This document shows positions 27,621 through 30,359 of a stretch of 33,598 bases of DNA, piece after piece; within the stretch, counting starts at the first letter, position 1; every line of letters begins with the position of its first letter. Source of the DNA: a virus. The notes under the pieces were generated by a model. The model ran no database searches. It saw nothing but the letters and a program-made list of their open reading frames with translations, and was not told the DNA's origin. The stretch lies in IMG/VR virus record IMGVR_UViG_3300032296_001470, positions 1 through 33,598 of that record; one strand, given 5' to 3'. Made by a program: the position numbers and the translations under genes.

Positions 27621-27646
27621 GCAGCCGGGCGTAAATGTTCGGCTGC
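27621..27646 (+). terminator. Hairpin between SSB and helicase genes
   Basis: GCAGCCG and CGGCTGC form a perfect seven-base-pair stem with a 12-base loop, followed by TTAATTT. The T-tract is poor, so it may slow polymerase or stabilise the SSB message rather than end it. Confidence 0.45.
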
Positions 27647-27658
27647 TTAATTTCACAA

Positions 27659-28906
27659 ATGACCCTTCGCACATATCAAGATCAAATCGCCAACGATGCC
27701 GTCAAGCTTTTAAAGGCTTACGGCATTGCTTATTTGTCGATGCAAGTAAGAACGGGAAAGACCATTACAAGCCTTACGGCGGCGGTTCGCTACGGCGCAA
27801 AGGAAATACTATTCGTAACCAAAAAGAAAGCCATTAGCAGCATCCTAAGCGACCATGCGCACATTGAGGGCAAGAGCGTACTGGCGGTTGTCAATTACGA
27901 GCAGTTGCATAATTACGACAGTAACCCGGATATAATAATTTGCGACGAGGCGCATTGTTTGGGAGCCTTCCCGAAGCCATCGGTCCGCACCAAACGATTG
28001 AAAGAAATCTGCAAGAACAAACCTGTTATATTTTTAAGCGGTACACCTACGCCTGAAAGTTACAGTCAGATATACCATCAACTTTTTGTCAGTTCCTTTT
28101 CGCCTTTCAAAGAATATAAGAACTTTTACCAATGGGCCAACGCTGGGTATGTAAACATCCGAAAAAAGTATTTACACGGCATGGCAATTAACGATTACAA
28201 ACAAGCGAATAAAATCATGATAGACAAAGAAACAAAGCATCTGTTCATTAGCTATACACAAGAACAAGCGGGTTTTAAAACAGAGGTTCAAGATGAAATT
28301 ATACCCGTGAAGATGCAGCCTTCAACTTATTTTTTAGCGGACAAATTACGCAAAGACAGAGTTTTTACAGGTAAAAACGGCAACGTAATACTTGCGGATA
28401 CGGAGGTCAAGTTGATGAACAAATTGCATCAAATCTACTCAGGAACGGTAATTGATGAAAGCGGTGACGGTGTGGCATTTGACAATACGAAAATCAAACT
28501 CATTCAAGACCTGTTTAGAAACAAAAAGATTGCTATTTTCTACAAATTCAATGCGGAGGAAAGCCAGTTAATTTGGGCGTATGGGTATGACAAACTTACG
28601 ACCGATCCCGAAGTATTCAATCAGTCGACGGATAAGGTTTTCATTTCACAAATCCAATCCGGGAGGGAAGGCATTAACCTAAGCACGGCAGACGCTCTTG
28701 TGATGCTTAATATTGACTTCTCGGCGGTCAGTTATATTCAAGCCCGTAACCGATTAATGAGTAAAGAAAGAACAACCCCTGCGAAGGTGTACTGGATATT
28801 TGCGGACGGTGGTATTGAGCAGGAAATTTACAGTAAGGTTCAGGACAAACAAGATTTTACACTTTCATATTTCACAGAATGGAATCAAAAATCCAATCAA
28901 AAATAA
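27659..28906 (+). CDS. SF2 DNA helicase (SNF2-type)
   Basis: 415 residues from ATG 27659; the longer frame would start in the hairpin region. It has all main SF2 motifs: Q-like MTLRTYQDQI, Walker A MQVRTGKTIT (28-37), DEAH at 96-99 inside IIICDEAHCL, SGTP (127-130), a FYQWANAGYVN segment, and the C-terminal half QSGREGINLST, DALVMLNIDFSAVSYIQARN and RLMSKERT (motifs V-VI). This resembles small phage SNF2-like helicases rather than RecG or UvrB. It may remodel replication forks. It overlaps the VRR-NUC gene by 28 bp, so nuclease and helicase are probably made together. Confidence 0.85.
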   Translation: MTLRTYQDQIANDAVKLLKAYGIAYLSMQVRTGKTITSLTAAVRYGAKEILFVTKKKAISSILSDHAHIEGKSVLAVVNYEQLHNYDSNPDIIICDEAHCLGAFPKPSVRTKRLKEICKNKPVIFLSGTPTPESYSQIYHQLFVSSFSPFKEYKNFYQWANAGYVNIRKKYLHGMAINDYKQANKIMIDKETKHLFISYTQEQAGFKTEVQDEIIPVKMQPSTYFLADKLRKDRVFTGKNGNVILADTEVKLMNKLHQIYSGTVIDESGDGVAFDNTKIKLIQDLFRNKKIAIFYKFNAEESQLIWAYGYDKLTTDPEVFNQSTDKVFISQIQSGREGINLSTADALVMLNIDFSAVSYIQARNRLMSKERTTPAKVYWIFADGGIEQEIYSKVQDKQDFTLSYFTEWNQKSNQK

Positions 28907-29130
28907 AAGCGAAGTTTGAGCGTGCCGGGTGGCTCGTTGTCAAATTAATCAAAACCAATACAAATGGAATCCCCGATCTCATGTGTTTGAAATCGGGGAA
29001 AACTATATTTGTTGAGGTTAAGCAACCCGGTAAAGTACCAACTCCTTTGCAATTATACAGGCATGAAGAACTAAGGGCAAAAGGATTTGAGGTTTTGGTG
29101 TTGACGGATGCTGATAGTGTTATTCTTTAA
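28879..29130 (+). CDS. VRR-NUC nuclease
   Basis: 83 residues, the usual size of a free-standing VRR-NUC domain. It shows ESKIQSKIKAKFERAG, then a Lys/Asn-rich VKLIKTNTNGIPDLMCLKSG with the catalytic Asp of GIPDL, FVEVKQPG (Glu and Lys of E-x-K) and QLYRHEELRAKGFEV. In this family the enzyme trims replication or repair structures and often sits with helicases, as here. It is the last gene on the plus strand; 16 bp separate it from the converging minus-strand gene. Confidence 0.85.
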   Translation: MESKIQSKIKAKFERAGWLVVKLIKTNTNGIPDLMCLKSGKTIFVEVKQPGKVPTPLQLYRHEELRAKGFEVLVLTDADSVIL

Positions 29131-29146
29131 CCTCGTTTCAATTATT

Positions 29147-29374
29147 TTAACTATACGCAAAATCCAATCTTTTAGCCAGTTCCCAAGTGAATAAAGCCGT
29201 TGGTTGAATTTCTTTTACTACTTTCTTTCCCCTGAATTTGGTGTACTTATACCCGTTTCTTTTTAGGAAGTTGTACACGTTTTGGTAAGATAACCCGGTA
29301 AGGGCTTGTGCTTCCTGTATCGTCGGGTTCGTTGGTGCCAGTTTAGTTAGTTGTTGTCTTTGTTGCGGTGTCAT
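29147..29374 (-). CDS. HTH-like small protein
   Basis: 75 residues. A polar start MTPQQRQQLTKLAPTNPTIQ leads to EAQALTGLSYQNVYNFLKRN, which reads as a helix-turn-helix (ALTGLSYQNVYNFL), followed by a basic GYKYTKFRGKKV wing and an ALFTWELAKRLDF helix. It resembles small phage transcription factors. Its start overlaps the methyltransferase gene by 32 bp, and its end converges on the VRR-NUC gene. Role as regulator is inferred. Confidence 0.6.
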   Translation of the reverse strand: MTPQQRQQLTKLAPTNPTIQEAQALTGLSYQNVYNFLKRNGYKYTKFRGKKVVKEIQPTALFTWELAKRLDFAYS

Positions 29375-30359
29375 ACTGTTCTATTGATTTTAAAATTTGT
29401 AATACTACTTGTGGCACTATGGCGTTTCCGGCTGCTTTGATTGATTCGTTTCGCCATTTAGAAAAGGTAATTCCGTCCAGTCGGGAGGGAAGCCCATCAT
29501 TTCGAGAACAAATTGGGGATTGAGATGGGAACGTGTCCCAAGTACCTCGTTTATATGACTGCCCAAATCGTCCCCTTTCCAGTTCTCCGTTTTCCAATGC
29601 ATCCGTTCGTCCGATGTTCTCGGTGTCGGCAGCATCCCCATACTCATTGCCCGTGTCAGCGTTACTGAGTGCATACTCCCCTCCTTCACCTGGCTGCTCT
29701 TCATCGTTGCCGTTGCATTGGTCGAGTCCATTGCAGTTGGGGTGGGGAGTAGGCCGTTCATTTTTACTGATGTTGTTAAATCCGTTTGTTTTTTCTTCCC
29801 ATTTTGGTCTCTCCAATAATTTCCCTCCCAAGTCCATCCCTCTTTTGGTTCGTAATCCATTTGCATACAACTTGGCGTAGGCAACAAACCAAACTCTGTC
29901 CCTTCTGTGGGGAGCGTTAACGGCCGCAGCTGGAAGTACATACGGTTGGACTTCGTACCCTTCAGCTTCCAAGTCAGCTTGCACCTCTTCGAAAACCAAC
30001 CCTCCTGACCAATTAACAAGGCCGAGAACATTTTCGCCCACGATCCAACGTGGTTGAATTTCTCTAATTGCTCTAAGCATTTCGGGCCACAAGTGGCGTT
30101 CATCGTCTTTTCCTTTTCGCTTTCCTGCCATTGAGTAAGGCTGGCACGGGAACCCACCTGTGATGATGTCGATTTGTCCTCTGTGAATAGTAAAGTCTGT
30201 TTTTGTGATGTCATTGTAACTGATTGAATTAGGCCAATAATGTTTTAATACTTTTTGTCCGAAAGGATTCCATTCGCAATGGAAAATATTTTCCCATCCC
30301 ATCCATTCGGCTGCTAAATCAAAACCTCCAATTCTGGAAAATAAAGAACCGTGTTTCAT
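29343..30359 (-). CDS. C5 cytosine DNA methyltransferase
   Basis: 338 residues with the ordered motifs of C5 enzymes: I SLFSRIGGFDLAAEWMGW, IV GGFPCQPYS with catalytic Cys72, VI VGENVLGLV (109-115), VIII APHRRDRVWFVA (149-160), then a hydrophilic target-recognition region and the end motifs X as NESIKAAGNAIVPQVV (about 307-322). The N-terminal MKHGSLFS.IGGFDLA and the WNESIKA.GNAIVPQV end are typical of phage enzymes. It methylates phage DNA and may block host restriction. The 4-bp overlap with the DnaA-like gene and the 32-bp overlap with the HTH gene place it in an operon. A second open frame fills most of the gene. Confidence 0.9.
   Translation of the reverse strand: MKHGSLFSRIGGFDLAAEWMGWENIFHCEWNPFGQKVLKHYWPNSISYNDITKTDFTIHRGQIDIITGGFPCQPYSMAGKRKGKDDERHLWPEMLRAIREIQPRWIVGENVLGLVNWSGGLVFEEVQADLEAEGYEVQPYVLPAAAVNAPHRRDRVWFVAYAKLYANGLRTKRGMDLGGKLLERPKWEEKTNGFNNISKNERPTPHPNCNGLDQCNGNDEEQPGEGGEYALSNADTGNEYGDAADTENIGRTDALENGELERGRFGQSYKRGTWDTFPSQSPICSRNDGLPSRLDGITFSKWRNESIKAAGNAIVPQVVLQILKSIEQYDTATKTTTN
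29417..30214 (-). CDS. Nested overlapping ORF in the methyltransferase gene
   Basis: A 265-codon frame that begins at ATG 30214 and lies wholly inside the methyltransferase gene, +1 relative to it. Its protein is not random: LLPTP or MLPTP occurs three times in regular spacing (GLLPTPSCM, GLLPTPTAM and GMLPTPRTSD), there is a CGPKCLEQLEKFNHVGSWAK block and a RCKLTWKLKGTKSNRMYFQL stretch, and the end has LNPQFVLEMMGFPPDWTELP. LPTP repeats plus LNP.FV..MMGFP are features I associate with proteins or domains tied to phage C5 methyltransferases. Whether it is translated is unknown; no ribosome-site logic is apparent. If real, two proteins are read from the same 800 bp. Confidence 0.55.
   Translation of the reverse strand: MTSQKQTLLFTEDKSTSSQVGSRASLTQWQESEKEKTMNATCGPKCLEQLEKFNHVGSWAKMFSALLIGQEGWFSKRCKLTWKLKGTKSNRMYFQLRPLTLPTEGTEFGLLPTPSCMQMDYEPKEGWTWEGNYWRDQNGKKKQTDLTTSVKMNGLLPTPTAMDSTNATATMKSSQVKEGSMHSVTLTRAMSMGMLPTPRTSDERMHWKTENWKGDDLGSHINEVLGTRSHLNPQFVLEMMGFPPDWTELPFLNGETNQSKQPETP

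Follow-up and report, generated by a model that had tools for sequence, protein, structure and literature searches.

Organization of the methyltransferase locus

The window analyzed here, 33,598 nt of the IMG/VR virus record IMGVR_UViG_3300032296_001470, carries a gene for a C5 cytosine DNA methyltransferase of 338 aa (29343–30359; this gene, the frame nested in it, and all features of either are on the minus strand). We refer to the product of this main frame as alpha. By profile it is an ordinary member of PF00145 (E 8.6e-45), and a PHROGs profile search placed it in phrog_363 (4.3e-70); PDB profile matches and an AF2 large domain resembling that of M.HhaI agree with this assignment. Motifs I, IV (PCQ), VI (ENV), VIII (PHRRxR), and X (GNA) are all present in the order I-IV-VI-VIII-X, as had been proposed from the sequence. 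Motif IV, PCQP with the catalytic Cys (residues 71–74; 30138–30149), is invariant in alignment A4 and was also read directly from the sequence. The same alignment has invariant P150, H151, R153, and R155 in motif VIII, PHRRDR (residues 150–155; 29895–29912), and invariant G311, N312, and A313 in motif X, RNESIKAAGNAIVPQV (29406–29453).

A second, ATG-initiated frame of 265 codons (beta; 29417–30214) lies wholly within the methyltransferase gene, +1 to the main frame, at exactly the coordinates given in the original prediction. The first ∼45 residues of its product are poorly conserved. They are followed by a conserved part (residues 52–99; 29918–30061) that overlies main-frame motifs VI–VIII and contains the near-invariant columns W59..W73..C78..LTWK..R91..FQL. 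Three (L/M)LPTP units come next: LLPTP at residues 110–114 (29873–29887), LLPTP at residues 155–159 (29738–29752), and MLPTP at residues 194–198 (29621–29635). Their number is as first described, but the regular spacing ascribed to them is only rough, at 45 and 39 residues. The protein has the expected C-terminal end, LNPQFVLEMMGFPPDWT. A motif IX-like element, LNPQFVLEMMGFPPDW, occupies residues 231–246 (29477–29524); L231, M239, M240, and F242 are invariant, and P233, G241, P243, and W246 are near-invariant. Among relatives the number of LPTP units ranges from one to five and varies with nested length, which suggests modular specificity.

The nested protein matches phrog_1008 (1.4e-24; residues 16–248 against 40–281 of 329), a family already labeled "DNA methyltransferase" in PHROGs, and sequence searches of Pfam, NCBIfam, and PDB with it returned nothing convincing. 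AF2 produced a weak model of the nested chain alone (pLDDT 60, pTM 0.26), and Foldseek found nothing with this weak model as the query.

The neighboring genes were read from sequence only. An SNF2-like helicase (27635–28906, plus strand) is overlapped by a small VRR-NUC-like nuclease (28879–29130, plus strand), and a small possible helix-turn-helix ORF (29147–29374, minus strand) overlaps the 3′ end of the methyltransferase gene. No restriction nuclease was recognized beside the methyltransferase gene in this reading of the ORFs.

The main chain between motifs VIII and X

In C5 methyltransferases, the target-recognition domain (TRD) and motif IX sit between motifs VIII and X and form the small DNA-reading domain (PMC3404938). 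We looked for both in the corresponding interval of the main chain (residues 166–296; 29472–29864) using the PDB profile, AF2, and conservation, and recognized neither. The PDB profile alignment of 95 main-frame relatives to M.HhaI and M.HaeIII extends no further than motif VIII. AF2 gives a confident large domain made of most of residues 1–165 plus residues 300–337, the latter being the motif X region, which is helical and confident; residues 186–291 have pLDDT <50 and are predicted to be disordered. Foldseek matched the AF2 main chain to ∼170 residues of M.HhaI, all in the large domain. Main-frame conservation drops to 0.23–0.42 per 20-aa block within the interval.

Open length of the nested frame

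An open frame this long had been thought unlikely to arise by chance, and we find this to hold. The +1 frame is open for 275 codons, a length reached by none of 5000 synonymous-codon shuffles that preserve the main protein and codon usage (mean 103 codons, maximum 257), and the longest run in the +2 frame of the gene is 46 codons. The accompanying remark about low GC is only mildly true, with the methyltransferase gene at 45% GC. The +1 run also exceeded that of all 200 synonymous shuffles in 114 of 119 related genes. Because choosing loci by their nested frame was to be avoided, we fetched 80 viral loci through the main protein alone. Among the 43 distinct and not previously found relatives in this set, the +1 run was at least 180 codons in 42 and 171 codons in the remaining one (median 278), with a +2 median of 36. 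Canonical C5 genes from the same genomes, taken as a negative control (n = 16), had +1 runs of 30–169 codons and gave no nested hit.

Stop codons within the nested frame of close relatives, an observation that the original prediction would have counted against it, are mostly absent: isolated nested stops occur in a few of the ∼119 genes (e.g., L008 and L111). We also noted two loci (L245 and L079) in which the main frame is broken by stop codons and the nested frame is largely open; these are probably decayed copies or sequencing errors.

Selection along the overlap

The fourfold-degenerate sites of the main frame are the middle positions of nested codons. Over 115 genes, divergence at these sites is free before main codon ∼49 and after ∼311 and suppressed between them, and these limits lie near the nested start and stop. 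For main codons 101–160 it amounts to 0.14–0.26, compared with 0.4–0.57 upstream. In 48 independent, non-overlapping pairs, main-frame fourfold divergence was 0.309 outside the overlap, 0.165 over motifs IV–VIII, and 0.083 over the VIII–X interval. The value outside the overlap was higher than that in the VIII–X interval in 45 of 48 pairs (p 1e-10) and higher than that in the motif part in 36 of 45 (p 7e-5). Within the VIII–X interval, nested codon position 3 varied more than position 2 in every one of the 48 pairs. Taken together, the fourfold and position-3 patterns indicate that the nested frame is constrained in just the stretch that holds the TRD and motif IX of C5 enzymes.

Both frames are therefore open, conserved, and under selection. 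The synonymous-site freedom expected of an idle second frame is not what we see, since main-frame fourfold divergence is strongly reduced across the overlap. The view that the two frames are both constrained stands, with the qualification that they are so unevenly: both keep some constraint across the overlap, and the main frame dominates in motifs I–VIII and the nested frame between VIII and X.

The nested frame could in principle be a by-product of main-protein composition and codon use, with no second protein made, and composition alone does yield fairly long +1 runs, as the shuffle mean illustrates. However, none of the shuffles attained the observed length, the canonical C5 genes contain no such run, and fourfold suppression is seen only in the overlap. 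We assign this explanation next to no probability; short of a systematic error in the alignments, the independent-pair tests refute it.

Homology to single-chain phage enzymes

We found relatives of the nested protein within one-frame enzymes. Mycobacteriophage Estave1 gp75 has, in a single frame, motifs I–VIII, then LLPTP-type units, then NPRLAAAFPEWMMGWPAGW, and then motif X. A profile of the nested protein aligns in frame with the VIII–X segment of 23 single-chain mycobacteriophage enzymes (hhalign probability 97.8%, E 7e-13), and hmmsearch of the nested profile against single-chain enzymes, a small set, gave values of up to E 2e-21. With the nested profile, no hits came from controls made of reversed, shuffled, or canonical sequences. 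These alignments thus make the C-terminal half of the nested protein a homolog of the TRD-IX segment in single-chain enzymes, which answers the concern that homologs might be confined to overlapping frames. The match begins at about profile column 131, and nothing in the matched part of the single-chain enzymes corresponds to the N-terminal ∼100 nested residues.

The nested profile showed no homology to canonical bacterial C5 enzymes (probability 0.9%), so the designation "motif IX" rests on position, on homology to single-chain phage enzymes, where the element aligns in frame with NPRLAAAFPEWMMGWPAGW, and on spacing. The L-to-FP spacing of LNPQFVLEMMGFPPDW equals that of canonical motif IX, e.g., LSVREAARLQSFP in L268.

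These data bear on whether the nested protein, although real, might have a role unconnected with methylation, overprinting the enzyme gene as, for instance, an anti-restriction or regulatory protein. Its unmatched N-terminal part and its lack of a Pfam or PDB relative would fit such a role. We nonetheless regard it as quite unlikely, given that its C-terminal half has a homolog in the stretch that single-chain C5 enzymes carry in frame from motif VIII to motif X, that the main chain has no recognizable TRD, and that no nested copy was found away from a methyltransferase. This last search covered the genome, phage, and plasmid loci examined, none of which held a stand-alone nested copy far from a methyltransferase.

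A probable dual-coded two-subunit enzyme

The original prediction had the phage making an enzyme and a partner from the same DNA. The evidence supports this reading and sharpens it, because homology to the TRD-IX segment makes it most likely that the partner serves this very enzyme as its recognition subunit. We consider it very probable that the locus encodes a dual-coded, two-subunit C5 methyltransferase for phage-DNA methylation, with alpha carrying motifs I–VIII and X and nested beta carrying the TRD and motif IX. Under this model, both chains would be translated. Alpha would provide the AdoMet-binding catalytic large domain (motifs I–VIII) together with motif X; beta, started at its own internal codon, would supply the TRD and the motif IX-like element, which together make up the small DNA-recognition domain apparently missing from alpha. 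The two chains would assemble into one enzyme, with beta setting its specificity, and this enzyme would methylate specific sites of the phage genome, with protection from host restriction as the simplest purpose.

Beta is probably made by internal initiation, since the nested constraint begins near its own start and since the nested ORF of Kagunavirus opens with an ATG that directly follows an in-frame stop and is preceded, 6 nt away, by GGAG. Nested start codons vary among relatives. No obvious ribosome-binding site precedes the nested ATG in the window, which would be usual if the host were of the Bacteroidota type.

Programmed ribosomal frameshifting could instead fuse main-frame motifs I–VIII to the nested TRD, possibly returning to motif X, to give one polypeptide. 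The resulting order, I–VIII (main), TRD/IX (nested), and X (main), would be that of a single-chain enzyme such as Estave1 gp75. Two shifts would be needed, +1 and back, and nested constraint is already present upstream of motif VIII, beginning near the nested start; the Kagunavirus ATG, behind its stop and its SD-like GGAG, likewise argues for a separate start. We judge frameshifting to be very unlikely and favor the two-subunit enzyme.

Relation to known split methyltransferases

M.EcoHK31I and M.EaeI are both naturally split C5 methyltransferases, and the smaller ORF of M.EcoHK31I is likewise nested in the larger, in a different frame. In M.EcoHK31I, motif IX is on the small chain (PMC3404938; PMC3439449), and the larger polypeptide has motifs I–VIII and X and also the predicted TRD (PMC3404938). 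Compared by its published description, M.EcoHK31I (YGGCCR) resembles the phage locus in having two polypeptides, the large one with I–VIII and X and the small one with motif IX, where motif IX of the phage beta chain is assigned by homology to single-chain phage enzymes and by spacing, and not through a match to canonical enzymes. It differs in that its predicted TRD is on the large chain, whereas selection, homology, and structure prediction place the phage TRD on the nested chain. If the TRD prediction for M.EcoHK31I were wrong, the phage locus would simply belong with the M.EcoHK31I kind.

M.AquI has catalytic motifs I–VIII on one chain; its small subunit holds the distal TRD, motif IX, and also motif X (PMC3404938). 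The phage pair shares with it the separation of catalytic motifs I–VIII from the TRD and motif IX, but its motif X is on the large chain, and the other chain is nested within the gene for that chain. Enzymes of the Estave1 gp75 type, whose TRD-IX segment is homologous to the nested C-terminal half, differ in having all motifs in one frame, such that no nested chain is needed.

The split C5 layout itself is thus known. In the literature searched, we found no description of the nested pair in phages, and we did not find its breadth or domain assignment described. For double-stranded DNA phages there are few documented cases of long gene pairs that are fully nested on one strand and conserved across phyla.

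Distribution and gene layouts

We found the nested pair again in phages, prophages, and plasmids spanning six or more bacterial phyla. It was present in all 11 distant phage and plasmid loci of our first set. All 80 bacterial-genome loci found with the nested profile also had the +1 nesting; these were mostly from Bacteroidota, plus a Burkholderiaceae, a Phycisphaerales, and a Bacillota MAG. The pair was seen in phages of Paenibacillus, Lacticaseibacillus, Bacteroides, Escherichia, Salmonella, Pseudomonas, Mycobacterium, and cyanobacteria and on plasmids of Leptospira, Leptolyngbya, and Rhodoplanes, and later examples (L293, L295, L296, and L298, and the short forms L294 and L302) had it too.

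Other layouts were also recovered. The Estave1 enzyme (L299, 1501–2604) is one chain, and that of Twister (L297) is encoded by two slightly overlapping genes, gp79 and gp78 (1483–2022 and 1973–2476), with motif X on the second, a layout shared with M.AquI. One-chain, split, and nested versions therefore coexist. The domain supplied by each frame can be named, and selection is seen switching frames along the gene; together with the coexisting versions, this makes the origin of the overlapping genes testable. On balance, we lean toward a widespread and ancient class of phage C5 enzymes in which the whole recognition domain moved into an alternative frame of its own catalytic gene; the one to five LPTP units would be specificity cassettes, and the same DNA would encode the alpha-chain linker.

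GenBank records list both frames for L004, L254, and L260; the main frame alone is annotated in L001, L002, and many phage records, including those of Bacteroides phages. The "Mte8-like" proteins of Kagunavirus and Paenibacillus phages (phrog_1008) are annotated only as methyltransferase or hypothetical, and we found no stated recognition-subunit role in the annotations of these proteins. Where a phage or prophage methyltransferase is annotated as one CDS, its record may in many cases lack an essential subunit, and the missing subunit would make expressed enzymes look dead and would mislead specificity prediction.

Two forms of the locus are very short, with a main chain of ∼241–254 aa: Bacteroides phage BX788P2 (L302, 1486–2208) and Stenotrophomonas phage S72 (L294, 900–1664). 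Nested-type sequence (LPTP or LNP...MGW/MSFP) is still found in their +1 frame. The C-terminal part of L329 has several repeated LPTP-type segments and four overlapping profile matches, resembling serial recognition modules.
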